Assembly (NCBI GenBank): GCA_002238825.1
Contig: MPNC01000003.1
Span: forward strand, 1-64,000
Source: SAR202 cluster bacterium bin87
Lineage (GTDB): Bacteria > Chloroflexota > Dehalococcoidia > Lucifugimonadales > UBA3495
Length of the DNA stretch: 64,000 nt
Direction of reading: 5' to 3'
Shown piece after piece: positions 1,980-19,208 of the stretch (within the stretch, counting starts at the first letter, position 1; each line of letters opens with the position of its first letter). A model generated the notes under the pieces. The model did no database searches. It worked only from the letters and a program-made list of their open reading frames with translations, and was not told where the DNA came from. A program made the position numbers and the translations under genes.

Positions 1980-4385
1980 TCACAGCCGCGCCAGGCGGTC
2001 CGCCAGATCGGCTAGTCGTTCCCGCTGCGCTACGTGACTGGTCCAGCGCAGTGGTATTGCCGAAGCGCCATAACGGGCACCCAAAACCGCGCCGGCCAAG
2101 GCGGCGTTCGTGTCCGTGTCTCCGCCTGCGTTCACCAGCGCTACCAGCGCTTCCTCGAAGTCCAGCGGCGCGGTAACTGCCCACAGGCCCGCCTGCATCG
2201 TCATCACGGTGTGGCCGCGGACCCCTCGCCTTTGGCCACCGCGCATCCATCTGGTATCCCCAGGCGCGGACCTTCCCCGCATGGCGGACTCCAGAAGTCC
2301 TGTGGGAACTCCGGCCTCCCGAGCTTCGGCGATCAGGTCAGGACACCCATCGGCTCTGGCCGCAGCCAGCAACTCCTTCAGGTCGGGAACTGCGCCACTG
2401 ATCAGAACCGCGATGGCGGCGTTGACGATGACGCAGGACCACTGGCTGGCCGGCGCATAATGGGACACCGCGCAGGTGTCCGCAGTGTCGCTCACCAGCA
2501 GCTCCGGTTGGCGCCTCCGCGCGATGGCCACCGGCGCGCACCTCATGATGCCTCCATTGGGGGCAATCTCGCCCTTGGCGCGATAGACAGCGTAGGCGGC
2601 CACCGGCGGCGGGACCTTGTCCTTCAGCTGGTTGATGGATTGCCTGGTGGTCCGGCCCATTCCCCGTCCATTGAGCAGGCTCCAGGCCACCAGCCGCGCC
2701 GCGAAACGCTCAACCAGATCCCCGCCCTCCAGCAGCGCCTCGGCAAGCTCCACCGACTGCGCCGGATCGTCGTCCAGAGGCTTCGCCATCTCCGAGGGCT
2801 GTATTTCCCTCACCCCATGTGGGTAATGTTCCCGGATCCACCCCTCGGACTTCCCCTCTATTGCCAGGCCAAACAGGTTGCCGACCACCACTCCCAGCAT
2901 CAGGCCACGAGCCCGGTCCTCGATCCGACCGCCCTCGGGCGCTGTGGCTGTGGCGTCAGCGAGATATCGCACCAAGTTGGGGGTACGTCCCACCACCGGC
3001 TCCGTGGGGAGCATCTGGTCAGTGCCGCCGAACACCTTGTTGCACTTGGCACACCGGAATGGCCTTCCGCGCGAGTGCCAGTCCCGGCGCAGGCTGGCCT
3101 CCTGGCTCGCGCAGTTCGGGCATCTCTTGATCAGCGTCCTGCCGAACACCTCGTTGCAGCTCCGGCACCGCAGCGCGTTATAGCGCTTGAACCAATCCTG
3201 GCGCAGCCGGGCGTTCCTGCTCTTGCACTTGGGGCAAGCTCTCTCCATGGCGGGAAAAGCAGGGCGCGGAGCCCGGGGTCTCCGCGTAACCGGTGGCGCG
3301 GGCGGAGCCGGCGCTGGCCTCGGCGTCGAAGCCGTCCGTGGAACCGCCGCCGGTTGCGGTCCAACCTGCCAGACCGGCGGCGTGGCCGATACCCTGGGCG
3401 CAGGCTGTGCCGCTTGCTGCTCCGTGGGCGACACCGGATTCGGGTTCTGCTCCAGGATGCTGGCCCACGCGTCAGCGGTGGGACGACCGACGTGGGAAGC
3501 GCCCGGTGAGAATGCCTGACGGAAGGCGTTTTGCACCCGTTCCGGCATGGACCGCCAGCTCCGCACCTGCCCCGGCGTGGGGCGCCAGCGTCTTTCCCTG
3601 GGCTGGTGGGCAAAACGGTGGTCCTTGATTCGTTCCCTGATGTTGGACACCGCGTCATCAGCCGATGCGTCCACCCCCTGGTAAGGGTGGCTGCCGTTGC
3701 CCAGGAGCTGGTACAGCAGCACCGCAAGCGCGAAGTTGTCGCTGTCCTGGGACCGGAACTGCCGCCGGAAATCGTCGATCTCCGGCGCGGTGTACTCGGG
3801 ACTGCCCACCACGCATGGATACGGCTGGTGACCGGGCGGGCCCGGTATCTGGAAGCTGTCGCAGTCGATCAACATGACCGACCCGTCATCGCTCACCAGG
3901 ATGTTGGACGGGTTCACGTCCCCGATCCGCACGTGGATGGTGTGCAGCCAGCGGAATGCCTCGGCGATCTTCACGCCCAGCCGCGCCCGGTATTCGTACT
4001 CCTGCTGGCGCGCCGGCAGTTGCCGCCGCTCGTTGGCGCTGATGAAACGGTATGCCGTCCCGGCTCCCCGGGAAGCCTTCGGCATACGGTACCGGAGGCC
4101 GTCAGCGTCGGTCTGCAGAACATTGGGCCAGCTCAGCGCCTGCGCGTTCTGCGGAGGGTTGTCGCACATGGCCCGCAGCTTGGCCGCGCGTTCCGGCGTT
4201 GCGTGCTGCTGGTGCAGCACCTTGATGACCATACCGGAATCGTTGCGGTCCTCGTAAACCGCCCCCTCTCCACCGGCTCCAATCAGCTTCCCGATGCTCA
4301 GAGGACCCGATCTCGCCGGCGCCGGTCCGTTGGCCGGTTCCTCTCTCTTCCCGGCTCCCCTGAAACGGTCGATGAAACTGGTCAT
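1980..4385 (-). CDS. Protein kinase - zinc ribbon - ADP-ribosylglycohydrolase fusion
   Basis: An 801-residue protein starting at MTSFIDRF, 14 bases after the phosphatase stop. Residues 28-300 are a Hanks-type kinase: glycine loop GAGGEGAV (36-43), Lys55, catalytic loop IGDVNPSN (Asp156, Asn161) and DCD in place of DFG (Asp174). A Pro/Ala-rich linker follows (315-380), then two CxxC-CxxC zinc ribbons (about 384-411 and 422-449). Residues 487-800 match the ADP-ribosylglycohydrolase (DraG/ARH) family, with DDDP (538-541), NGGIMRCAP (610-618) and GGDTDTNAA (754-762), the last being the metal-binding signature. The protein could therefore phosphorylate targets and also remove ADP-ribose. It is the kinase of a TerY-type triad with the next two genes. 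Co-occurrence of all three modules in one chain is unusual. Confidence 0.9.
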   Translation of the reverse strand: MTSFIDRFRGAGKREEPANGPAPARSGPLSIGKLIGAGGEGAVYEDRNDSGMVIKVLHQQHATPERAAKLRAMCDNPPQNAQALSWPNVLQTDADGLRYRMPKASRGAGTAYRFISANERRQLPARQQEYEYRARLGVKIAEAFRWLHTIHVRIGDVNPSNILVSDDGSVMLIDCDSFQIPGPPGHQPYPCVVGSPEYTAPEIDDFRRQFRSQDSDNFALAVLLYQLLGNGSHPYQGVDASADDAVSNIRERIKDHRFAHQPRERRWRPTPGQVRSWRSMPERVQNAFRQAFSPGASHVGRPTADAWASILEQNPNPVSPTEQQAAQPAPRVSATPPVWQVGPQPAAVPRTASTPRPAPAPPAPPVTRRPRAPRPAFPAMERACPKCKSRNARLRQDWFKRYNALRCRSCNEVFGRTLIKRCPNCASQEASLRRDWHSRGRPFRCAKCNKVFGGTDQMLPTEPVVGRTPNLVRYLADATATAPEGGRIEDRARGLMLGVVVGNLFGLAIEGKSEGWIREHYPHGVREIQPSEMAKPLDDDPAQSVELAEALLEGGDLVERFAARLVAWSLLNGRGMGRTTRQSINQLKDKVPPPVAAYAVYRAKGEIAPNGGIMRCAPVAIARRRQPELLVSDTADTCAVSHYAPASQWSCVIVNAAIAVLISGAVPDLKELLAAARADGCPDLIAEAREAGVPTGLLESAMRGRSAPGDTRWMRGGQRRGVRGHTVMTMQAGLWAVTAPLDFEEALVALVNAGGDTDTNAALAGAVLGARYGASAIPLRWTSHVAQRERLADLADRLARL

Positions 4386-4399
4386 GACGATCGGTCCCT

Positions 4400-5200
4400 T
4401 CAGCCTTTCCTGATGCACACCGCGATGGTGCAATCGTCGGTCGCCTTGCCCGCGTCGCCCACTTTCCGGAGCAGCGCCTCCAACACGGCATCGGGAGTTG
4501 ACGCGAAGGATCGGTTCAGCGCCCGGTACAACGGGCTCCAGAACCGTTCGTAGGGCGCAGTTCCACGGGACAGCGCAACATCCTGAAGCCCATCGGTGAT
4601 GGCCGCCACGCACCTGACGCCGGAACCGGAAGTGACCGCGATTCGCGGCAAATTTCGCGGATTGGTCAGAAACTTGGTCTCGTTGGCGAACTCACCGTTG
4701 TCCGGCTTGCTCAACAGGCGCCATTCGTCACCGTCGCCGGCCACCACGCAACCGTCGCCCACGTGGGCCACACCAACCAGTCGCTCACTGGCCAGCGCCA
4801 GCATCACGGTGCAGGCGTAGTCGTTCACGTTGACCGCACCGGCCGACCGGTGCGCCGTGTCCATCACGCTTCGTCTCGCGCTGCGCACGGCACGCTGCAG
4901 GGCGCTCCGCAACAGATGTCCCTTGACGGCGATGGCTCGGTTCCGCTCAAGCTGACGAGCCAGGCTGGCAACCCCGGCAGCGCAGGCAGCCTTTGAGCCA
5001 AACTGGGAGTATCTGGCCGAACCGGCCCCATCGCTCACCGCCATGATCGCCGCCGGACCCAGACGCCCCAGAAACGACGTCGCCACCACCGCGCTGTCCT
5101 GGTTGGGTGTGCCGTCCTTCAGATGGCTGGCGCCCTGCCGGCTCGCGTGGCCGGTCTGAACGTTCAAACCTCGGCCGTGACTGCGGGTGTGTTCAGACAT
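4400..5200 (-). CDS. PP2C-family serine/threonine phosphatase
   Basis: A 266-residue PP2C-type phosphatase of the compact prokaryotic kind. Metal-binding motifs are present in order: NQDS (about residues 34-37), SDGAGSA (56-62), HVGDG (about 146-150), TDGLQ (about 203-207) and TDDCT near the C-terminus, so it is likely active. The start overlaps the end of the vWA gene by eight bases and the stop lies 14 bases before the kinase start, so the three are co-transcribed and probably co-translated. In related triads the phosphatase reverses the partner kinase and the vWA protein acts as scaffold. No membrane segment is present, so it is likely cytoplasmic. Confidence 0.9.
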   Translation of the reverse strand: MSEHTRSHGRGLNVQTGHASRQGASHLKDGTPNQDSAVVATSFLGRLGPAAIMAVSDGAGSARYSQFGSKAACAAGVASLARQLERNRAIAVKGHLLRSALQRAVRSARRSVMDTAHRSAGAVNVNDYACTVMLALASERLVGVAHVGDGCVVAGDGDEWRLLSKPDNGEFANETKFLTNPRNLPRIAVTSGSGVRCVAAITDGLQDVALSRGTAPYERFWSPLYRALNRSFASTPDAVLEALLRKVGDAGKATDDCTIAVCIRKG

Positions 5201-5936
5201 TGATGGTGGTCCAGTCGGTGGGCGGCAGGTTCACCGCCTCCCCAGGCGTGCTGCGCGATATCGCCGAGACCGACCGGCTCAGCCATACGAAGAAGTCGCT
5301 GAACCGCAGGCTGTCCAGCTGCTGGGGTTGGAATCGGGAGTTCGGATTGGGCAACACTCTCAACATCGCCTGCACCGCCTCCGCGTTCACCCCCACCTTG
5401 AAAATGGTCAACTGGCTCCCGCTCTCCATATCCACCAGACGCTGGTTGGCCCGCTCCATCTCATCGCGTGCGCTGGTGGGCAACCCGTCACTGAAGAGCA
5501 CCATGATGGGCCGGAAGTAGGGCACGCCACCCCGCCGGTACTGCTCCTCGCGGTCTTCCAGGAGGTCGCACCCCTGCTGGATGGCCAGGTGCATGTTGGT
5601 GGCCCCGCCCGCCCTCATGTTGGTTTTGCCGCGCTCGCTGACGGTGCTGAAATCCCGCTCCACCCTGGCCTCGGTGCTGAAGGACAACAACGCCACCTCC
5701 ACCCGGTTGCGCGCGATCTCGTCGTCGATGACGGCCTGGTACAGGTCGTCGACGCCGCGGTTCATCGCGTCAATGGGACGTCCCCCCATGGATCCGCTGC
5801 AGTCGGCGATGATCAGGACGGGACAGCGCGGCTCCGGGTTATCGGCAAACTCAAGGTCCCCCAGTTCATCCTCAAACAGCAGATCCTCTTCGTCCGGCGC
5901 ATCCTCGGGGAACCGTTCTTCCGTAACGTCGCTCAT
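5193..5936 (-). CDS. TerY-like von Willebrand factor A domain protein
   Basis: A 247-residue cytoplasmic vWA protein. An acidic N-terminus (residues 1-38) precedes the domain. The metal-ion-dependent adhesion site is intact: DCSGSMGG (about 45-52), a Thr in GGATNMHL (about 110-117) and Asp in LFSDGLPTS (about 147-155). Size and neighbours fit TerY, the vWA member of the TerY / PP2C / kinase triads known from tellurium-resistance-associated gene clusters. It overlaps the phosphatase gene by eight bases. It probably assembles kinase and phosphatase on a metal-dependent platform; that is inferred from the family, not visible here. Confidence 0.88.
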   Translation of the reverse strand: MSDVTEERFPEDAPDEEDLLFEDELGDLEFADNPEPRCPVLIIADCSGSMGGRPIDAMNRGVDDLYQAVIDDEIARNRVEVALLSFSTEARVERDFSTVSERGKTNMRAGGATNMHLAIQQGCDLLEDREEQYRRGGVPYFRPIMVLFSDGLPTSARDEMERANQRLVDMESGSQLTIFKVGVNAEAVQAMLRVLPNPNSRFQPQQLDSLRFSDFFVWLSRSVSAISRSTPGEAVNLPPTDWTTINV

Positions 5937-5989: not shown

Positions 5990-6853
5990 TTATCGCCGAC
6001 CGCCAGAATCGCGCCGGCGGCTATGGGCGCTCCGATCATCAGGGCTCGCCTCCGCCTCGTAGCGTCCGACGATGCTGGTCACGTGTGGATAGAGCGGCAA
6101 CCGCTCCCTGCCATCCCACCAACGGAAGGATTCCAGCTCACGATCGTTGATCCTGGGTTCGCCTCCCGCGAGGACCAGCACCACCTTGTGGTCGTTGGAG
6201 CTCCCTTCGTTGGTGTAGTCAAAGAGACGCTCGGCACGATAGGCCTTCATGCCCAACTCTTCGCCCAACTCACGGCAGGCGGCCGTCAGCGCCGCCTCGC
6301 CCTGCTCCATCCCTCCGCCAGGGAGAGAATACTTATCATGGCCCTTGTCCCGAACCAGCAAATACCTGTCGTCCTTGACCACCAGCGCCGGGGCCCGCTG
6401 CTGCTTGCCTTGGCGCGCGCCACCGGTACGGCCGCGTTCCCCTTCAGCCGTATAATCTCTCTCCGGCCTGGCGTTGCCCCTCTTGATATCCGCCCAGAGG
6501 CGCAGCGCCTTCCGGTCTCCCCCGAAGGCCAGATCCTCCGGCCGTATCCTTTCAGGGTTGCGCCAGCGGACGTCCAGGCATTCTCTCTCCTGGAAACGTA
6601 GCCGGCCGCCCACCCGTTGACCAACGAACACCTGGATGGGCCGGGTATTGCCAGTGAACAGCCGGTGGGTGATCTTTACGATGACACCCGTCTCCTCCCT
6701 GGTCTCCCTGTAGGCGGCGTGCCGACTGCTCTCGCCGCGGTCCACCAGACCACCGGGCAGCGACCACTTGCCTTTTTCCTTACCGTACGCTCTTTGGACG
6801 AAGAGCACCTCGCCCTTCTCATTCTCAACCAGACAGAACGCCACGTCTCTCAT
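5990..6853 (-). CDS. Tandem two-domain Nudix hydrolase
   Basis: A 287-residue protein with two Nudix domains. The first (about 1-125) has a complete box around residues 34-57 and closely resembles the Nudix domain of the gene at 1446-1952 (both share VENxKGE/GRGE and KGKWSLPGG). The second (about 150-265) is a different subfamily with its own complete box (GGMEQGE ... RELGEELG, about 176-199). The C-terminal tail is basic and Ser/Arg-rich. It is the first gene of the operon, 53 bases before the vWA gene. Together with the downstream Nudix and glycohydrolase domains it suggests hydrolysis of an ADP-ribose-like product or signal; the substrate is unknown. Confidence 0.88.
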   Translation of the reverse strand: MRDVAFCLVENEKGEVLFVQRAYGKEKGKWSLPGGLVDRGESSRHAAYRETREETGVIVKITHRLFTGNTRPIQVFVGQRVGGRLRFQERECLDVRWRNPERIRPEDLAFGGDRKALRLWADIKRGNARPERDYTAEGERGRTGGARQGKQQRAPALVVKDDRYLLVRDKGHDKYSLPGGGMEQGEAALTAACRELGEELGMKAYRAERLFDYTNEGSSNDHKVVLVLAGGEPRINDRELESFRWWDGRERLPLYPHVTSIVGRYEAEASPDDRSAHSRRRDSGGRR

Positions 6854-7420
6854 ATCGACACTCTCTTCAACTCAACCCGCACAACGCGTACGAGCGATCC
6901 AGTGTGTCCGCATTATAGACCGCATCGCCACACCAGTGAATCTGACGCGGGATAACGTCGGAATCGATGCCGTGCAATGTTGAGCACCGGGATGCCTCTC
7001 CGTTCATCTACCCACTCACCATGCGCGTCAGCGGGTTGCCTAGATCAGTTCCAGAGGGCAAGGTGGTAATGCCTGTCGCCACGGGTTGAGGAGCAGAGAC
7101 CAGTCACGCACGGCATTGTCCTACGCATCGGAATCGGGAACGAAACTTACATCGACTTCCGCCGTCCAATTTCAAACGAGGTTGTTACACCCGCTCATCG
7201 TTGGAAATCAAGGGAGCCGGATTATCTCCAGGGCCCTGTCGATCGGCCTATCGATACCCGTCCAAGTTCGCGCAATAGGGTCATTACGTGAACCTCGCTG
7301 TGTCCGCCAGAAAGCTCGACGGCATGGCGCAGCACGTCTGCACCGGCAAGGCGGCAACGCGCTATCCCCGCTGGGCGGCGCGCGCTGGAGAACACCAACC
7401 CCTCAAGACCGCGAGGGAGT
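6854..7420. other. Non-coding gap upstream of the triad operon
   Basis: About 570 bases between the start of the double-Nudix gene and the end of the HEAT gene. It must hold the promoter of the minus-strand operon, but I could not pick a convincing -10/-35 pair. The only recognisable element is one copy of the dispersed repeat near 7250-7300. Confidence 0.5.
7245..7300 (-). repeat. Dispersed repeat copy D (NDPIART element)
   Basis: Contains TTCGCGCAATAGGGTCATTA exactly (about 7266-7285), also found near 25627 and 33202. On the minus strand one frame encodes RNDPIART in this copy and near-identical peptides in the others, so the repeats look like scraps of a small protein-coding gene. Confidence 0.6.
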
Positions 7421-8691
7421 TCATCCTGCTTCGGGCGCCGCAGACTGACGCCCGGGACCTCTGGCCAGGAAAGCCAGCGCGCCGCGGATCGCTTCGCGCA
7501 CCTCCTCAACTTCACCTTCGTCCTCCAGGGCGTCGGTGAGGACAGGGACGGCGCTCCCGTCGTCCAGGTGTCCCAGCTCCCGGGCGGCCGCGGCTCGCAC
7601 CGCCGCGTCACCGTCGCCCAGAGCGCTCAGCAAATGCGGCAGGGCATCCCGGTCAACCAGCGCGGGAAGAGCCAGAACCACCCGCAGTCGCCGCCGGGAG
7701 CAGGGGCTGCTCAACCACGCCAGCATATCGCCGGCGGTGATGGTATCCCCCAGTTGACGCAGGGCGCGCGCCGCCGCCGCCGCCAATTCCAGTTGCCCCT
7801 GCTCCACCGCCAGCCTGAGCATGGGCATGGCGCGAACCACGCCCATTCCGCCCAGTTTGCGGATGGCTGCTCGAGCGACAATATCGGGGCGGGAATGGAA
7901 TATGTTCCTGCGCACCAGGTCGATCAGGGCCTCCTCCGCCTGGGGACCGCCCAGTTCTACCAGGGACGACAGCGCTGCGATGCGCACGTGCCTTTCATAG
8001 TCGTCCAGCGCCCGGATCAAAGCCGGAACGGCCCGGCGGTCTCCGAGAAGGCCCAGTGCGTTGACCAGGTCCTCCCGCAGTCCCCGGCGTTCCTCGGCCA
8101 TGATGTTCGGCGCCCCCAGAGCGTCGATCAGGGCGGGGACGGCCCGGGGGTCTCCCAGGCTGTGCCCAGGGCAACGGCGGCCCGCTCCTGCACCACTCTG
8201 CTGGGGTCGCCCAGAGCATCCATGAGGGCGGGCACGGACGCCGCAGCTCCCAGCGTACCCAGGCTGGCGGCCGCCTGTCGCCGCCGGTGAGGTGGGCCAC
8301 GGCGGAGCGCTTCAAGCAGAACCGGCAGCGACTGCGGGGCGCCCAAGTCACCCGCGGCCACGGCGGCGGCGAACCGAACCTCCTCCTCAGGGTCCTGGAG
8401 CATGGGGAGCAGCGACGGCAGCGACGCCGGGGCCGAGAACGCCCGCAACGCGTCGGCGGCGTGGGACCGCACCAGGGCATCCGGGTCCCGGAGCGCCGCC
8501 GTCAGGCTCTCCACCGCCAACCGCTCCACGGCGGCAGGACCTGACCCCGGTGGCCCGCCCGGGTCGGGAACTGGCCGGATGGATAACCCCAGGGCACGGG
8601 CGGCGGCCCGCCGCGCCGGGGCCGACTCCGATTGCAGCAGGTCCACCAGGAAGTTGACCAGTTGTTCCTGTCCGTCGATGCCCAGCATCAT
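7421..8691 (-). pseudogene. HEAT-repeat protein, frameshifted
   Basis: Two minus-strand reading frames (8691-8128 and 8101-7421) together encode one HEAT/PBS-lyase-type repeat protein of about 420 residues, made of ~31-residue repeats such as DPxAxVRxxAAxALG and AVPALIDAL. The frame changes at about 8140-8155 in a run of C and G: the upstream frame runs into a stop after AWETPGP, while the other frame continues the same repeat as PRAVPALIDALG. One missing or extra base would restore the gene, so this is either a recent frameshift or a sequencing slip in a homopolymer. HEAT repeats mediate protein binding; no enzymatic domain is visible. Confidence 0.75.
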
Positions 8692-9553: not shown

Positions 9554-9967
9554 CTACTGTCCGACTCTCCTGAACTTGGGCAGGGTGATCTCGTCGTTGA
9601 CCGCCTCAAAGACTACCTCCACTTCCATGCCGATCTCGATGTCGTCCGCGTCACAGTCCACCAGATTGCTGATAAGGTGGACCCCCTCCTCCATCTCAAC
9701 TTCCACCACGCCCCAGGGGAGACGCTCCCGGAAGGCTGGGTTCACCGGCTGGCGGGTTATGACGTAGGTGTAGACCTTACCCTTCCCCGGCGACTCCACC
9801 CACTCCAGGTTGGACGAAGCGCACTCCGGGCAGTTGGGTCTTGGCGGATGGCAAAAGGAACGGCAGTCCAGGCAACGCCGCAGCACCAGCCGGTGCTGCC
9901 GGCACTGGTCCCAGAATTCCTGGTTGTCCAGGTTGGGCACCGGCAGGGGAAAATTAGCGGTAGTCAC
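9554..9967 (-). CDS. DUF35 OB-fold / zinc-ribbon acyl-CoA-associated protein
   Basis: A 137-residue DUF35-type protein. It has the N-terminal helix (NQEFWDQCRQHRLVLRRC), a rubredoxin-like zinc ribbon (C...C...CPEC, about residues 22-50) and a C-terminal OB fold (about 60-135, with GKGKVYTYVITRQP). Proteins of this family bind acyl-CoA and form heteromers with thiolase-like partners, for example in sterol side-chain aldolases. The gene starts a few bases after the thiolase-like gene stop and is surely in the same operon, matching the usual pairing. Confidence 0.9.
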   Translation of the reverse strand: MTTANFPLPVPNLDNQEFWDQCRQHRLVLRRCLDCRSFCHPPRPNCPECASSNLEWVESPGKGKVYTYVITRQPVNPAFRERLPWGVVEVEMEEGVHLISNLVDCDADDIEIGMEVEVVFEAVNDEITLPKFRRVGQ

Positions 9968-9974
9968 AGCTGAC

Positions 9975-11111
9975 TCACCTCCTCAGTATCAGGGCACCCG
10001 AGCCGTCGCCACTGTCAACCAGACCCAACTCCGCGCCCTCCACCTGGGCCGGCGACTGTCCCCGCAACTGACGCACCACTTCGATGATCTGGTTCATGCC
10101 CTGAAGGTAGGCCTCGGATAGATGCCCGCCGGAAGTGTTGACCGGCAGTTCTCCGCCCACTTCAATCCTGCCCCTCTCGACGAAGGGCCCGCCCTCGCCG
10201 CGCTGGCAGAAACCGTAGTCCTCCAGCTTGGTGATGATCACCGGGCTGAAATGGTCGTAGAAGCCGACCACGTCAATGTCCTGCGGGGTGACCCCGGCCT
10301 CACCGAACAACTCGGGCGCCAGCAGGGCTCCGCCGCTTTCGTCCCAGGAACGCCCGTGCCCGTCCATACCGGCCAGCAGCGTTTGGGCAGCGCTGGTTAT
10401 GTACACCGGCGCGTGTTTCAGGTTGGCCGCCCTTTCCGCCGAGGTGATGACGAAAGCGTTGGCCCCGTCGGCCTCCAGCGCGCAGTCCAGTATGTGCAGG
10501 GGGTCGAAGAACATTCTGGAGGTCAGGTAGTCCTCCATGGTGATGGGCCGCCCGTGCATGATGGCCTTGGGGTTGAGACAGGCGTTATTTCGGAAGGCCA
10601 CCGCCACCGCGCCAAAATGTTCCATCTTGGTGCCGAACTCGTGCATGTGGCGACGCGCCCGTAGTGCGCTGGATTGCCCCGGCACCAACAGGCCGTAAGG
10701 CTCGGTGAATGCGGAGCTGCCCAGGCCCCGGCGGGTGGTGACGGTGCCGGAGCCGTAGCGTTGCCCGGAGCGGCCGTTGACCGAACGATACACCAGCACG
10801 TTGTTGACCACGCCCTGGGCAACGGCCATCGCCGACTGTATGACCAAGCCGCAGGCGGCCCCGCCCAGCGGCCCCAATTCGCCGTAGTACCGCAGGTAGG
10901 GAATACCCAGGCAGGCGGCCAATTCCCCCTGGGGTGTGGAGTCGGCGGTAAACTTCACGATGCCGTCAATATCCTGGGGAACAAGACCCGCGTCGGCGAT
11001 GGCGCGGTTTGCCGCCTCCACGGCCATGTTCAACTCGGTCCTGCCGGAGTCCCGGTTGTAGACCGTCTCTCCCACGCCAACGATAGCGCATTTGTCCTTC
11101 AAGGTGCTCAT
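9975..11111 (-). CDS. Thiolase-like lipid-transfer protein / acyl-CoA aldolase-type enzyme
   Basis: A 378-residue thiolase-fold protein of the SCP-x/Ltp group starting at MSTLKDKCAIVG, with AGGAGG about eight bases upstream. Recognisable segments are the N-terminal CAIVGVGET, the core GPLGGAACGLVIQSAM, YDHFSPVI near residue 289 and the C-terminal NTSGGHLSEAYLQGMNQ. The position of the usual nucleophilic cysteine is not a clear thiolase active site, so it resembles Ltp2-type aldolases that work with a DUF35 partner, encoded directly downstream. Likely role: cleavage or formation of C-C bonds in CoA-linked side chains; the substrate is unknown. Confidence 0.85.
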   Translation of the reverse strand: MSTLKDKCAIVGVGETVYNRDSGRTELNMAVEAANRAIADAGLVPQDIDGIVKFTADSTPQGELAACLGIPYLRYYGELGPLGGAACGLVIQSAMAVAQGVVNNVLVYRSVNGRSGQRYGSGTVTTRRGLGSSAFTEPYGLLVPGQSSALRARRHMHEFGTKMEHFGAVAVAFRNNACLNPKAIMHGRPITMEDYLTSRMFFDPLHILDCALEADGANAFVITSAERAANLKHAPVYITSAAQTLLAGMDGHGRSWDESGGALLAPELFGEAGVTPQDIDVVGFYDHFSPVIITKLEDYGFCQRGEGGPFVERGRIEVGGELPVNTSGGHLSEAYLQGMNQIIEVVRQLRGQSPAQVEGAELGLVDSGDGSGALILRR

Positions 11112-11221
11112 GTACGGCCCTCCTGTCTTGGCCAAACACCCGTCGCCGCAAGGAATGGTGGTGGTTACCGGCGGCGGGCGGGGCACGAATTGGGCTGTGG
11201 CCTCTCCCTGGTAGTCCAGGG

Positions 11222-12757: not shown

Positions 12758-14782
12758 CTACCCCCAGCCGTTCCGCAATAGGCATCCGGGCATCGCTCCA
12801 GTGGGCTCGCCGTCCTCAAAGGTGATCTCGCCGTTCACCAGCGTCCAGCGGTAGCCCTTGGCCTTCTGGATCCGGCGCCACTCGCCGCCGGGCAAGTCCT
12901 CGGCCACCTCAGAAGGCAGCACTTCCAGCTTCTCCAGATCATAGACGACCATGTCCGCCGGCGCGCCCTCACGCAGCGCTCCCCGGTCCTGGAATCCGCC
13001 GAAGTGGGCCGGCAGATACGATAGCTTGAAGTGGGCGTCCTCCAGGGTGATGACCTGTTCGTCTCGCACCAGCCAGGCCAGCATATCCGTCGGATAGATG
13101 CCGGCGGTCAGGAACTTGACGTGCGCGCCCCCGTCGGAAACACCGGCAACAACGTGGTTGGAGTCCAGCACCTCCGCCGTGTACTGCGCTACATCGCGCC
13201 CCTGGGTGTCGGCATAGAACTCCGTGGCCAGGTCGTCCTCCACGCACATGTCCAGCAGCGCGTCGATAACATGCTTGCCCTGTTCGTCGGCGATTTGCTG
13301 AACGGTCAGGCCGGCCTGCGGGCTGGAAGTCTCGGTCTCGTCCGGCGCCAGAGCAATCATGCGCCCATCGACGACGTTGACGACGAAGGACTTCAAGCGC
13401 AGCTCGCCGTTGGTGATGCAACGCCCGCCGTCATGCTCGTATTCGTAGCCGTGGGTATCGCAGACGAACTTGTCTCCTTCATCATCCACGCAACCGCCCT
13501 GGTGCGGGCAGACCACCGACAGCAGCTTGTAGCCGTCGCGGGTGTTGACCAGGAAATAGTCTGCCCCGCTGACATTGACCTTGGCGGGCATCCGGGTGAA
13601 GTCGGTCTCAGCGCCGATGTCGATCTTCACCTTGCGCGTCATCACCTGCAGGCTGCCCACGGAGCCGGGCGTCACCTGGGTGGGGCGCCGACCCGAGTCC
13701 CATTCTTCCTTCAGCTTGAGGCGCATATCCGGATCGGACATCTTGGCCTTCCTGGTGGCCTTGTCGCCCAGCGTGACCTCGCGCCACATGGGAGTGTCGT
13801 CGAACAGATTCCAGTCTTCGAAAGTGAGTTCAAACCCTCCGCGGCGGGTATTGCCTTGTCCGTAAACCCGCAAGCCACGCTCAGCGCAGCTCTCCAGCCA
13901 GCGGATGCGCTCGCGGTGCTGTTCGGGGTGTACCGAGTTGGGAGATACCGTCTGGTACAGCACCGGACGGTTCGAGACCTCGGCTACCCTTTCAAAGAAC
14001 AGGCGAGCCCCTTCGCCCAAAGGCCGCCCTTCCTCGCCGGTCTCCTGGTAGGCCAACTCGATGAAACCCTCGTCCCGGTCGGCCAGCACATTGGCGAAGG
14101 TCAGCACCTCGTGCTCGGACAGCATATCGGTAATCATCGGGGTGCCGTCGTAGTCCCGCTGCACGGAGTTCACCCCCAGCACCTGGGCCGACCAGCCACA
14201 TGCGCCGTGGTCCATGGCCTCGTGGATGAGACGCACCATTTCCTGCAGTTCGTCCTCCGTGGGGCGGCGGTTCTTGGCCTCGTCCCAACCCATGACCCAG
14301 GCGTAGAGCGGCGTCAGCGGCACGTAGGTCAGGCAGTTCACCCCCTTGGGAGTGTTGCCGAGACTTTCCATGAAATCGGGGAAAGTCACCCAGTTCCACG
14401 GCATCCCTTCCTTCATGGCGTCGTAGGGAATGGCCTCGTTACGGGTCATGCTGAGCATCGCCCGGTCCTGGTCCTCCACCCGCGAAGGCGCAAATCCGAA
14501 CCCGCAGTTGCCCAAGGCAACGGACGTTACGCCGTGCCAGCCCGACAGGGTGCAGTAGGGATCCCAGAAAATCTGGGCGTCGTAGTGCGTGTGCAAGTCA
14601 ACGAACCCCGGCGCCACAATCAGACCTTCCGCGTCAATTACCCGGTCGGCGGTGCCGCCGTTCAACCCGCCGATCCTGGCGATCCTACCGTCCTTGATGG
14701 CAATGTCGCTCACGTACCGCGGCGTCCGCGTCCCGTCTACTATGGTGCCCTTCCTGATGATAATGTCGTAATCCGCCATCAT
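12758..14782 (-). CDS. D-aminoacylase-type amidohydrolase with an internal Rieske [2Fe-2S] domain
   Basis: A 674-residue protein. Residues 1-370 and 485-674 form an amidohydrolase of the N-acyl-D-amino-acid deacylase family: HTHYD (64-68), Cys93 in GNCGFGFAPS, SDGGAHV (549-555), and the C-terminal beta-sandwich that completes the fold. Between them, residues about 380-480 read as a complete Rieske ferredoxin domain: CPH (425-427) and CDTH (441-444) supply the two Cys and two His cluster ligands, followed by DGGRC and a hydrophobic FVVNVVDG. The spacing between the ligand pairs (13 residues) is shorter than the usual 15-17. A hydrolase joined to an electron-transfer domain is unexpected; the cluster could be structural, regulatory or remodelled. 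Confidence 0.85.
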   Translation of the reverse strand: MMADYDIIIRKGTIVDGTRTPRYVSDIAIKDGRIARIGGLNGGTADRVIDAEGLIVAPGFVDLHTHYDAQIFWDPYCTLSGWHGVTSVALGNCGFGFAPSRVEDQDRAMLSMTRNEAIPYDAMKEGMPWNWVTFPDFMESLGNTPKGVNCLTYVPLTPLYAWVMGWDEAKNRRPTEDELQEMVRLIHEAMDHGACGWSAQVLGVNSVQRDYDGTPMITDMLSEHEVLTFANVLADRDEGFIELAYQETGEEGRPLGEGARLFFERVAEVSNRPVLYQTVSPNSVHPEQHRERIRWLESCAERGLRVYGQGNTRRGGFELTFEDWNLFDDTPMWREVTLGDKATRKAKMSDPDMRLKLKEEWDSGRRPTQVTPGSVGSLQVMTRKVKIDIGAETDFTRMPAKVNVSGADYFLVNTRDGYKLLSVVCPHQGGCVDDEGDKFVCDTHGYEYEHDGGRCITNGELRLKSFVVNVVDGRMIALAPDETETSSPQAGLTVQQIADEQGKHVIDALLDMCVEDDLATEFYADTQGRDVAQYTAEVLDSNHVVAGVSDGGAHVKFLTAGIYPTDMLAWLVRDEQVITLEDAHFKLSYLPAHFGGFQDRGALREGAPADMVVYDLEKLEVLPSEVAEDLPGGEWRRIQKAKGYRWTLVNGEITFEDGEPTGAMPGCLLRNGWG

Positions 14783-15012
14783 TTCCCCCTTATTGGAATT
14801 AGACTCTGAGATGTATCCCGAATGTAATGACGAAATACGTCAGAACCACGTCCTCGCGTCAGTCTAAATTGCCATCATTGCCGGCGTCAATAACTTTTAT
14901 TCGCACCAAGCCTGAATCGACCAGCGAGAGCGTGGGGTCTGCGCACTGAACAAGGGGAGGGCGCTCCTGTGCATCCGGGATGATGGTTTTGAAACAGACG
15001 CCCAATGCCAAA
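14783..15012. other. Intergenic region
   Basis: About 230 bases between the amidohydrolase start and the IS630 remnant. No gene or repeat was recognised; it should contain the amidohydrolase promoter. Confidence 0.4.
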
Positions 15013-16197
15013 CTAAACTGGAGCCACGGTGAAATCTACATTTGCAGGCCGGAGAGTGTCGGCCGGGGCGCTGGCGGTCGGTTCATCCGCTTGTGCTTGC
15101 CGCATGATCCGGCATCGTCGCTTGACTTCCTCGCGGCGACTGGACAGACGGGCGAAAAAGTCGCCCACCTGCTCCTGCACCGCGGCACGGGTGCCCAGGC
15201 ACTGGTTGGCGGTCGCTTCCTGACGTGCCCAGCCCCAGATGGCCTCGTCAGCTTTGAAGTCTGGGCTGTAGCTGGGCAGATTCATCAGGCGCAAGTTCGG
15301 GCCGGGCGTGGCCAGGTAGGCTCGCAGCGCGTCGCCCCGATGGGCTGGCGAATTGTCCCAGATCACGGTCAGTGGTTCAGGGTGTCGCTCCCGCAGTTGT
15401 CGCAGGAAGGCGGCTGAGGTGGCGGAGTTGCTGTTGCCCTCCAGTTCCATCACCTCCACCTCGCCGGTTTCCAGACTTACCGCTGAGTAGTAGCTGGCCT
15501 TCTCACCACGTCGCGGGCTGGTGGAGTCCACCAGGGCCGGTTCTCCTTTCAGGACCCACTTGCCACGCAGATCAGCGTCTGCTCGAAAGTGGGCCTCGTC
15601 AGCAGTGGGCCTCGTCAGCAAAGAATATCTTGGCCTCAGTCCGTCGGGCCGCCTCTGTTAGCGCGACATACTCCGCCACAAAGGCTTCCCGCCGCGCTGG
15701 GTCCGCCTTGACCAACCGCTTCTTGGGGCGCTTCAGCACAAACCCCAAACGGTGCAGAGCCTGTCCTGTACTCGATACGGGATAGTTCAGGCAACTGCTC
15801 CGGCTCAGCTTCAACCCGAACCGTTCCTCTACAAACCGGCGAACCACCTTCCAGTTCCAGTTGGACAGATCGATGCCCGCCGCAACTGGCGGTTGCTCCA
15901 CCGCCCCTTTCAACCTCTCCTGCTGCGCCTGGTCAGGAGCGGGGGGAACCACCGGTCGGCTCGAATATCAGGGCTGCAGGCCCTCCCTCACCGAATGCCG
16001 ACACCCAACGGCCTATGGTATGGGGCCCGTTCCAGCGCCTCCGCCGTGGCCACTGCCGTCCAGCCTCGGGCCAGCATACAAAGGGCATACCAACGCGCCC
16101 GTGCCCGGGGCGTGGGAGCCAAGATCATCCGCTGGTGCAGATCCTTGACTCCCATCTGCCATCGTTCCAGAGACCGGTCTATCTCCCTCACGCCCAT
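15013..16197 (-). pseudogene. IS630-family transposase with three frame disruptions
   Basis: Pieced together over three frames this is a ~390-residue IS630 transposase. The N-terminal helix-turn-helix part begins MGVREIDRSLERWQ (16197). One frame slip lies near 16035, a second near 15945 in a run of C, and a third is caused by an exact 16-base tandem duplication (15589-15604 and 15605-15620). The last falls on the first catalytic motif, so FFADEAH is read twice in different frames. The second catalytic region (VIWDNSPAHRG) and the third (SPDFKADEAIWGW) are still readable in the last segment. Three lesions mean it is dead rather than programmed frameshifting. Confidence 0.8.
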
Positions 16198-16358: not shown

Positions 16359-17639
16359 TCAGTCCAGCCCGAATTGCTCCCGGGCGTTCTGGCCCATCAT
16401 GCGGGCTATGACGTTCCGTTCTACTCGCGCCTGGGTCAGCGCCTGGATGGCGTCCCAAGCGCTGGTCGTGTCGTGGTGCGGATACCGGGAACCCCAGACG
16501 ATTTTATTTTCGTAGGCATGCGGGAGCTCCTGGATCATGCGCTCTTGAGCGTCGAACCCCAGCATGACGTGGCCTTCTTCCCACATTTCTTCAGGATCGG
16601 TCCTGACGGAATAATAATGCTGAAGAGGTATGACCCGTGTCGATGCCTCCATTTTCTCCAGGACTTCGTCCATCCAGGAGGCCTTGCCGTGGGCCATGAC
16701 CACCCTCATCTCAGGGAAGCGCTGCATGACGGTGTAGCCGATCAGCGTGGACGCGACGAACATATGGTTGTCCAGCCATGGGGACAATATCGGCGCCAGG
16801 GGATGCCCCAGCGGGATCATTCCCGTCGCCGGGGATGCCCGGTTGCGGTCACTGGTGCTGCCGCCAGCGAAGGGGCCCCCACCGCCGCCGCCGAGGCCGG
16901 CGGTCTGTGAGAACCGGCCGCTGATCTTTTCTACGAAGGGACCATGGGAAGTCCACTCCGGATTCCATAGGCCGGCCGTGGGATGCACGGCGGCGGCCAA
17001 CCCCAGGTTCTCCAGTTCTGCCCAAAGGGGATCGTAGTAGGGGTGGGTCAGGTACCGTCCTTCCATGAACATGGGCCGGATGAACGCTCCACGGAAACAT
17101 CGCGACCCGGAGACGCGGCGCAGTTCGGCTGAAGCAAAGTCCATGTTGCCCAGGGGGACCATCGCGGCGGCGAACAGACGGTCCGGCGCGGCCTCACAGA
17201 AATCTGCAATCCAGTCGTTGTACGCCCGCGCCAGCGCCCAGGCCACGTCCGGATCCTCAACCAGGTGAAAACCCTCGGCGAACCACGTCGGGTAAAGGAA
17301 GGTCTGGTCGATTCCCATGGCATCCATATCCCGGAGCCTGGCCTGTGGGTCAGATGCGCCTTCACACATCGGATGGCGGGTATCCGGGTCCAACTCGCCA
17401 ACGGAGTCCCAGGTCATTCCGGGCTTCCAGATGGCATGACGAGGAATGTTGGGGTTCGCGCTGTCTCGAAACACCTGGCCGTTGATCTTGAGATACGAGT
17501 CGAAACGCCCTTCTTCGCGCCAGAGGGCGATTTTACCCGGGACCCTGTACTCGGGCTCCAAGTATTTCTCCCACACGTCGCGGGGTTCCACCACGTGGGA
17601 ATCGCTGTCGAAAACAACGAAGTCTTTGCTCATAGTCAT
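16359..17639 (-). CDS. Amidohydrolase-2 family metal-dependent hydrolase/decarboxylase
   Basis: A 426-residue protein of the amidohydrolase-2 (ACMSD-like) family, with an N-terminal metal motif DSDSHVVEP (about residues 10-18), an arginine/aspartate core (RLRDMDAMGIDQ), a His in AAAVHPTAGLW and AHGKASW, and a C-terminal catalytic Asp in WGSRYPHHDTT. A Gly-rich insert near residue 250 is unusual. Family members cleave C-C or C-N bonds of small aromatic or carbonyl compounds; the substrate is unknown. It lies 25 bases downstream of a paralogue at 17665-19029, so both are probably co-transcribed. No good Shine-Dalgarno is seen at this start. Confidence 0.88.
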   Translation of the reverse strand: MTMSKDFVVFDSDSHVVEPRDVWEKYLEPEYRVPGKIALWREEGRFDSYLKINGQVFRDSANPNIPRHAIWKPGMTWDSVGELDPDTRHPMCEGASDPQARLRDMDAMGIDQTFLYPTWFAEGFHLVEDPDVAWALARAYNDWIADFCEAAPDRLFAAAMVPLGNMDFASAELRRVSGSRCFRGAFIRPMFMEGRYLTHPYYDPLWAELENLGLAAAVHPTAGLWNPEWTSHGPFVEKISGRFSQTAGLGGGGGGPFAGGSTSDRNRASPATGMIPLGHPLAPILSPWLDNHMFVASTLIGYTVMQRFPEMRVVMAHGKASWMDEVLEKMEASTRVIPLQHYYSVRTDPEEMWEEGHVMLGFDAQERMIQELPHAYENKIVWGSRYPHHDTTSAWDAIQALTQARVERNVIARMMGQNAREQFGLD

Positions 17640-17664
17640 CGCACGTCATCCGATGGACTGCCGG

Positions 17665-19029
17665 CTAGCGTCGCGTAACCGACGACTCCGGCTTGAGGGC
17701 CTCATTTATCTCGTCTTCGTCGGGCCACCAATCCGGGCGGTGGATCTCGGTAACTCGATCGCGAATGATCTTGCTGGGCGGCTCGATATTGTAGAGCCGT
17801 CGAGCGTTCGCCCCCAGGAACCTGGCCTGGTCGTCGATGGGCAACTCGCACTCTTCCATCGTCTCGATGGCCCTCCAGGCGTCGTCTCCGTCGTGGTGAT
17901 AGACGTCGGAGGCCCAGGCTAGGATGTCCCGGTAGTAGTCGGGCAGGCGCGACGGCGGGGCTTCGTCGCCTTCAAAGCCGGTGACGCAATGCTGGAAGAA
18001 AGTCTCGCTGGGCAGTTGCTTCAGAGGAGGCAGCTTGCGGTCATTTCGGTAGAGCCGATAGGTCTTGTCGCATTCATCCAGCAGGAAGCTCAGCCAGGTG
18101 GACGACGCCTCGAACACGGCGGCTCGGATCTTGGGATGCCTCTCGAAAAACCCCGACATCAGCACCATGGTCACCCATAGGGACGCCTCGGCCTGGAAGT
18201 TTTGCACATTGCCCAGGAAGGTATGCGGCAATCCGGAGGTGGAAATAGTCCTTCTGATGAGTTCTGCGCCCGAATACTGGTCGGAGTAACCCGGTGGTTT
18301 CGCAACCCCGGAAGCCGGGAAGGGGTGCATACCGTAGACCAGGCCGGTATCTTCCAGGGCATTCCACACGCCCTCGTACTTGGGTTGAATCGGGTAGTTG
18401 CCCATGGCATCCATGGGTCTGATCAGGGCAACCCGGCAGCCCTTGGCAGCCACGCGATAGACCTCTTCAACGGCGAACTGGGGGTTCTGCATGGGGATGA
18501 GGGCTGCGAAGTAGAGGCGTTCCGGGTCCTCCTGCGTGTATTCGTATGCCCAATCGTTGTAGGCCTTGCACATGGCCCGCGCCCCCAGGGCGTCCTGAAG
18601 CCAGGGGTAGGTATCGATGCTGGTCGGTATGATCATCACCTGGTCGATGCCCTGGACGTCCATGTCTCGGAGCCGGGGGCCGGGTTCGTCGGCCCCGGCG
18701 TGGGCGAGGTAATCCGACTGCTCCCTCGTGAGCGCAGTTTCAGGATTGAGGTTGCGGACGTTGAAAGCGCGCTGGATGTCGTGTTTGAGCCCGGGACCGG
18801 CTAGCCTCACGATGTCGATGGCGCCCGGACCAGTCTTCGGAACCGGGGAGAAGCTGTTCACGTCAGCCTTCCCGTTGACCAGCAACTGGTTTGTCTCGGC
18901 GTCGTACCACATGGTGGATTTCAGAGCTGCCAACTCATCGCTGGTGAGGTTATCTGCGGCCCGTTCCCATATGACAGCAGGCTCCACGATGTGCGCATCG
19001 CAATCGAAGGTGGGGAAATCTTTGGTCAT
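17665..19029 (-). CDS. Amidohydrolase-2 family metal-dependent hydrolase/decarboxylase (paralogue)
   Basis: A 454-residue amidohydrolase-2 protein from MTKDFPTFDCDAHIVEP. The metal motif is DCDAHIVEP, the core RLRDMDVQGIDQVM, then GMHPFPASG, AVFEASSTWL and the C-terminal SDVYHHDGDDAW. It resembles the downstream gene throughout and they probably arose by duplication. An upstream AGGAGG at about 19060 is better placed for a GTG start at 19053, which would add eight residues. Probable role: degradation of a small carboxylated or ring compound; not narrower than family level. Confidence 0.87.
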   Translation of the reverse strand: MTKDFPTFDCDAHIVEPAVIWERAADNLTSDELAALKSTMWYDAETNQLLVNGKADVNSFSPVPKTGPGAIDIVRLAGPGLKHDIQRAFNVRNLNPETALTREQSDYLAHAGADEPGPRLRDMDVQGIDQVMIIPTSIDTYPWLQDALGARAMCKAYNDWAYEYTQEDPERLYFAALIPMQNPQFAVEEVYRVAAKGCRVALIRPMDAMGNYPIQPKYEGVWNALEDTGLVYGMHPFPASGVAKPPGYSDQYSGAELIRRTISTSGLPHTFLGNVQNFQAEASLWVTMVLMSGFFERHPKIRAAVFEASSTWLSFLLDECDKTYRLYRNDRKLPPLKQLPSETFFQHCVTGFEGDEAPPSRLPDYYRDILAWASDVYHHDGDDAWRAIETMEECELPIDDQARFLGANARRLYNIEPPSKIIRDRVTEIHRPDWWPDEDEINEALKPESSVTRR

Positions 19030-19208
19030 TGGCCTGAATCGCTGCACTGGCACGACGGACCCTCCTCTCCACCGCATGGTGGATTGTACAAAGGCGATTT
19101 TGAGCCCAACCTAACAACGGGGTTTACTAATGTCAACAATCGGATGGGCATAATGAGCCTGAATCGTAGCGGTAGAACCTAGACCTACACCATTCGTTAG
19201 GTTGGCGT

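Follow-up and report, generated by a model that had tools for sequence, protein, structure and literature searches.

Monooxygenases with the amidohydrolase fold are known in Pfam family PF04909, where AibH1H2, PtmU3, and SfbO have been described (PMC7782822, PMC10811679, PMC10401708). AibH1H2 hydroxylates aminoisobutyrate with electrons that pass from NADH through AibF to the Rieske protein AibG (PMC7782822). Of the AibH2-like genes, 90% have a small Rieske gene next to them (PMC10401708), and it was the Rieske-gene neighborhood of AibH2-like genes that led to SfbO (PMC10811679). A second family, PF07969 (Amidohydro_3), includes D-aminoacylase, N-acyl-D-glutamate deacylase, and PpOngB; these subtype V enzymes require a Cys/His/His metal site, with the cysteine on strand b2 and the histidines on b5 and b6, and PpOngB harbors an insertion domain after b7 that contributes to its substrate pocket (PMC12017989). 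On the basis of the fold alone, many genes are annotated as "N-acyl-D-amino-acid deacylase." The protein analyzed here, in which a Rieske domain is nested within the barrel, is filed neither as a PF04909 oxygenase nor as a D-aminoacylase: we propose that it works like the first, and it looks like the second. The openly accessible literature (Rieske-amidohydrolase fusion, D-aminoacylase, Amidohydro_3, SAR202) yielded no description of an amidohydrolase with an internal Rieske domain. Thus, the combination, which a sequence-only reading of this DNA had called unexpected, is known as a pairing in the sister Pfam family, but that literature turned up no case of in-frame nesting.

An in-frame Rieske domain within an Amidohydro_3 protein

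The window, which is the whole 64,000-nucleotide stretch of DNA from SAR202 cluster bacterium bin87, a marine-type member of the Chloroflexota, that was analyzed, contains an ATG-initiated, minus-strand reading frame of 674 residues whose coordinates and strand had been called correctly from the sequence. The segments of the fused gene and its key residues are as follows.

12758-14782, minus strand: whole fused gene, encoding the Amidohydro_3 barrel and the Rieske domain nested in it; 674 aa, or 673 aa from the ATG at 14779
14785-14790, minus strand: Shine-Dalgarno-like AGGGGG ahead of the start codons, as read from the sequence
13703-14782, minus strand: residues 1-360, which comprise the N-terminal portion of the barrel (strands b1-b7) and a small beta domain (predicted model and alignment to D-aminoacylase)
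13316-13702, minus strand: predicted Rieske [2Fe-2S] insert, residues 361-489, b7-b8 excursion (Pfam, predicted model, and alignments)
12758-13315, minus strand: residues 490-674, which comprise the C-terminal portion of the barrel (from strand b8) and of the beta domain (Pfam and model)
14585-14593, minus strand: H64 and H66 of the HxH motif where strand b1 ends, candidate ligands of an alpha-site metal, invariant in 58 of 58
14504-14506, minus strand: Cys93, aligned equivalent of D-aminoacylase Cys96, invariant in 58 of 58
13508-13510, minus strand: Rieske ligand Cys425, invariant
13502-13504, minus strand: Rieske ligand His427, invariant
13460-13462, minus strand: Rieske ligand Cys441, invariant
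13451-13453, minus strand: Rieske ligand His444, invariant
13133-13135, minus strand: Asp550 after b8, equivalent of the D-aminoacylase catalytic Asp366, invariant in 58 of 58

The second ATG, at 14779, is better suited to the ribosome site AGGGGG, with a spacing of 5 nt, and is the start used by nearly all orthologues. In Pfam searches the Amidohydro_3 match to the fused protein is divided between two segments (82.1 bits; cut-off 29.7), the C-terminal one covering residues 492-655, and Rieske PF00355 matches residues 391-458 with 26.8 bits in the whole protein and 30.6 bits when the insert is searched alone (cut-off 20.3). PF01979 is also among the matches of the fused protein; PF04909 is absent from them, and so is the ring-hydroxylating alpha-subunit catalytic domain, even with E values of up to 10 allowed. 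The fused protein was predicted at a mean pLDDT of 89.3. As b7 comprises residues 306-310 and b8 residues 544-546 in this model, the Rieske domain is placed in the b7-b8 excursion, a predicted location that matches that of the PpOngB insertion domain after b7 (PMC12017989). By alignment, uninterrupted relatives have about 30 residues at this site.

The fusion is real and conserved. In a sample consisting of the window's genome and 59 relatives, the insert lies inside a long open frame in 10 of the 60 genomes, which represent four genera of one family (Chloroflexota, Dehalococcoidia/SAR202-type). Over 672-674 residues, full-length orthologues share 79-99% identity, several of the ten genomes are single-contig assemblies, and the joins are identical in position. 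When about 85,000 species genomes were scanned, the hits were Dehalococcoidia/SAR202-type MAGs plus three loci in two alphaproteobacterial MAGs, where proteins of the same architecture share 78-79% identity with that of the window. The search for the same architecture in other genomes that had been suggested from the sequence thus succeeded, with identities of 78-99% in ten Chloroflexota genomes and two alphaproteobacterial MAGs. A chimeric join, which that reading had also considered, is ruled out by the joins that these genomes share and by GC3, which stays level over both joins (0.82/0.86/0.83), with no composition break; the probability that the gene arose by an assembly chimera or frame accident is vanishingly small.

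In a sample of 393 genomes of the same class, the insert had no match at E 1e-15 or better outside family f1, and no viral homologues were found. Plasmids held no relative above 60% identity, the best places being in Novosphingobium and Sphingobium, with the annotation amidohydrolase. One alphaproteobacterial copy, in an Acetobacteraceae MAG (L057, 7854-10016), adjoins the genes for ribosomal protein L17 (rplQ), rpoA, and secY and therefore lies in a core chromosomal region; it may represent a transfer between Chloroflexota and Alphaproteobacteria.

The Rieske insert and the candidate metal site of the barrel

The four Rieske ligands lie within the amidohydrolase without frame breaks, as had been read from the sequence, and the C-x-H...C-x2-H set C425/H427/C441/H444 is invariant in all 17 aligned inserts and free-standing Rieske proteins, an invariance that persists down to 24-29% identity. 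The 13-residue gap between H427 and C441 had been noted as shorter than usual. The value is correct and the ligand loop is short, yet in these alignments it falls inside the 13-16 residue range of the free-standing relatives; that of T4moC has 16 residues. The insert is predicted to have a Rieske fold. When it was folded alone, its core exceeded a pLDDT of 90 and the top PDB matches were all Rieske proteins, with Z scores of 11.8 against the naphthalene dioxygenase ferredoxin and 11.7 against T4moC (the best fold match, at Z 11.8, covers 98 residues). The Rieske part was searched separately because a fold search with the whole model returned only amidohydrolases, one domain filling the list. 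Among solved structures, the Rieske profile best matches T4moC, which serves a diiron monooxygenase as its ferredoxin. Both ferredoxins share the fold and the ligand motif with the insert; unlike them, the insert is nested in the putative catalytic chain.

All three segments of the gene are under purifying selection, with dN/dS values of 0.04-0.26. The Rieske segment has evolved faster, reaching 0.26 compared with 0.04-0.10 for the barrel, and in the whole-protein model its pLDDT is below that of the barrel. Both observations would suit a structural or decaying domain, in which the Rieske fold is merely a lid and the cluster plays no catalytic part. However, the conservation of all four ligands down to 24-29% identity and the persistence of purifying selection argue against a structural or decaying domain, which we regard as very unlikely.

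The barrel closely resembles that of D-aminoacylase (1m7j; Z 44.1, rmsd 2.8, 442 residues in the fold search). Like the subtype V enzymes of PF07969, the fused protein contains the HxH motif, the cysteine, and the catalytic aspartate, the last within an SDGGAH sequence that aligns with SDGLPH of D-aminoacylase, and both have an insertion after b7, which in the fused protein carries the Rieske domain. H64, H66, D68, C93, E116, D550, and H554 are invariant in the 58 aligned members. In contrast, none of these 58 members, whether fused or not, has a conserved histidine at the ends of b5 or b6, and in an alignment the b5 and b6 histidines of 3gip have no counterpart in the fused protein. Because both histidines of the Cys/His/His zinc site are missing clade-wide, the barrel is not a D-aminoacylase; it had been described as an otherwise complete one, but two of the three catalytic metal ligands are absent (alignments; PMC12017989). 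Judged from the alignments, the residual 2-His/1-Asp (plus Cys) site is of alpha type and is a candidate metal site, in which the metal is possibly zinc. Relatives without any nearby Rieske gene retain the same HxH/Cys/Asp residues in the alignment, indicating that the barrel site as such does not need a Rieske protein.

This candidate site also appears to differ from those of the dinuclear oxygenases, which use three histidines and three carboxylates. Where these contain a D-x-H-x-x-E motif the fused protein has HTHYD, and its candidate ligands are HxH, Cys, and Asp; H64, H66, D68, E116, D550, and H554 are the invariant residues of relevance to a dinuclear set. The Rieske non-heme iron oxygenases are similar in combining a Rieske domain and, possibly, a mononuclear 2-His-1-carboxylate site in one chain. 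Their catalytic domain, however, is unmatched in the fused protein, where a TIM barrel surrounds the Rieske domain in sequence.

Recurrent coupling of Rieske genes with the barrel family

Genetic coupling of a Rieske protein with this barrel family recurs, and it takes three forms. In arrangement (a) the Rieske domain is fused within the barrel chain. Arrangement (b) consists of a separate Rieske gene of 122 aa that is convergent with an uninterrupted amidohydrolase paralogue, the gene ends lying roughly 70-530 bp apart; 10 genomes have it, the window's own among them.

C49:100216-100584 (Rieske) and 100822-102480 (amidohydrolase), convergent: type (b) pair of the window's own genome

Another convergent pair is that of L038 (8202-8570 and 8805-10502). 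At one further locus, L047, a cupin gene separates the Rieske gene from the amidohydrolase gene, and the two share a strand. In L042 the uninterrupted amidohydrolase is duplicated in tandem (4158-5831 and 6061-7737), adjoining a convergent Rieske gene. In arrangement (c), seen in a proteobacterial MAG (L082, 3021-3341 and 3353-5137), the Rieske gene precedes the amidohydrolase gene by 12 bp; in related MAGs it is located directly upstream (L084) or directly downstream (L086), and the upstream Rieske match in L087 is only partial. The flanks of the other relatives, checked over up to 8 kb, contained only three large Rieske-oxygenase-like ORFs, none of them adjoining the amidohydrolase. Most genomes of the genus have loci like L039 7872-8306, which encodes a third, more distant free-standing Rieske protein, about 35% identical to the insert. 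It has no neighboring amidohydrolase of this clade and is possibly a general ferredoxin.

The insert is 45-49% identical to the type (b) Rieske proteins compared with 24-29% to those of type (c), while the fused barrel shares up to 54% identity with barrels that have no nearby Rieske gene and 40-43% with the type (b) partner. Since the insert is thus nearest the type (b) Rieske proteins and the barrel nearest the Rieske-less barrels, these identities suggest that the fused barrel captured its Rieske domain rather than that the two were coinherited. Each Rieske-linked group forms one clade in the tree. AU tests of a single origin gave p values of 0.051 for all Rieske-linked rows and 0.077 for the fused and convergent ones, so that a single origin of the link is disfavored but not rejected, and we do not claim three independent recruitments.

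These arrangements also bear on whether the Rieske domain, sensing or switching from within the lid over the substrate, might gate a hydrolase or lyase whose barrel chemistry is not itself redox. In favor of such gating, the domain occupies the excursion that in D-aminoacylases contributes to the substrate pocket (PMC12017989), and both HxH and the catalytic aspartate are retained. Yet the Cys/His/His site is lost, and separate ferredoxin-like Rieske genes in the two other arrangements are easier to reconcile with electron donation than with a switch inside the protein. We therefore consider a redox-gated enzyme unlikely. The sequence-only reading had offered two roles for the cluster; the precedent of AibH1H2 and AibG better supports electron supply for an oxygenase-like step, and deacylase gating is weakened by the disappearance of the Cys/His/His site.

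Proposed mechanism and genomic neighborhood

AibH1H2 with AibG, and many AibH2-like proteins, resemble the fused protein in pairing a TIM barrel of the amidohydrolase superfamily with a small Rieske partner. The dedicated Rieske protein is supplied in cis in the fused protein, as a neighboring gene in its relatives, and as the separate AibG in the case of AibH1H2. The fused protein differs from the PF04909 oxygenases AibH2, PtmU3, and SfbO in belonging to PF07969 and in having the Rieske domain nested in the barrel. Because counterparts of AibH1H2 and AibG are present in one chain, and because the Rieske domain is nearest the T4moC-type ferredoxins, we propose that this is a Rieske-fed, probably O2-using enzyme. 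By this analogy, the protein would be a two-center redox enzyme in which the Rieske cluster supplies electrons to the metal of the barrel, probably to drive chemistry that depends on O2, a reading to which we assign a probability of roughly 45%. A reductase would load the cluster, which we infer to occupy the Rieske site, and the cluster would pass electrons to a redox-active barrel metal, either within the chain or to a neighboring subunit. The metal, probably iron or manganese, would be held by H64, H66, and D550 together with C93 or nearby carboxylates, and would carry out an O2-dependent or otherwise redox step on what may be a small catabolic substrate. The fused protein would then be the single-chain counterpart of AibH1H2 plus AibG. 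More tentatively, such proteins could constitute a new family of self-sufficient Rieske-powered oxygenases with a D-aminoacylase-type barrel and a mononuclear 2-His/1-Asp (plus Cys) metal, the donor having been recruited both as a neighboring gene and as a nested domain.

A clade that lacks the deacylase metal site is repeatedly tied to Rieske proteins, and one lineage has built the Rieske domain into the barrel. The fusion probably marks an enzyme that uses O2 or redox chemistry and that databases would wrongly list as a plain deacylase. Should the barrel prove to be an oxygenase, O2 activation would reach a second amidohydrolase family, outside PF04909, in a single-chain system that needs no separate Rieske ferredoxin and still requires a reductase. 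It would also add to the oxidative enzymes known from SAR202-type Chloroflexota.

Upstream of the fused gene in the window are two PF04909 genes, 25 bp apart (16359-17639 and 17665-19077, minus strand). Both encode a D-x-H-x-x-E motif near the N terminus and have PtmU3 as their best solved relative; the first has an arginine at the position after b8 where PtmU3 carries an aspartate. From their sequences they look like an AibH1/AibH2-type pair, one member of which is possibly noncatalytic. An IS630-type transposase (DDE_3) split between two frames (15013-15952, minus strand) separates them from the fused gene. These PtmU3/AibH-like genes so closely upstream (16359-19077), together with the luciferase-like monooxygenases that are common neighbors in other genomes, raise the possibility that the fused protein is an electron hub for a separate oxygenase (the PF04909 pair or a luciferase-like monooxygenase), with its barrel as a partner or docking platform. 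However, in G010 a long distance separates the tested PF04909 gene (C1:3921571) from the fused gene (C1:1656165), in G008 and G014 the two are on different contigs, and G003 and G006, both of which contain the fused gene, gave no match; the transposase intervenes in the window itself; and no partner is conserved across all fused loci, although flavin or luciferase-like oxidoreductases are frequent neighbors elsewhere. We thus view a hub function as unlikely. A conserved operon with the upstream pair is ruled out by this lack of linkage, and the pair is not taken as functional evidence. Across the fused loci no reductase or conserved operon partner was found, and synteny is limited to close kin. 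Elsewhere in the window (9554-11186, minus strand), a thiolase-like protein adjoins a ChsH2-type zinc-ribbon/OB protein, a pairing known for steroid side-chain aldolases.
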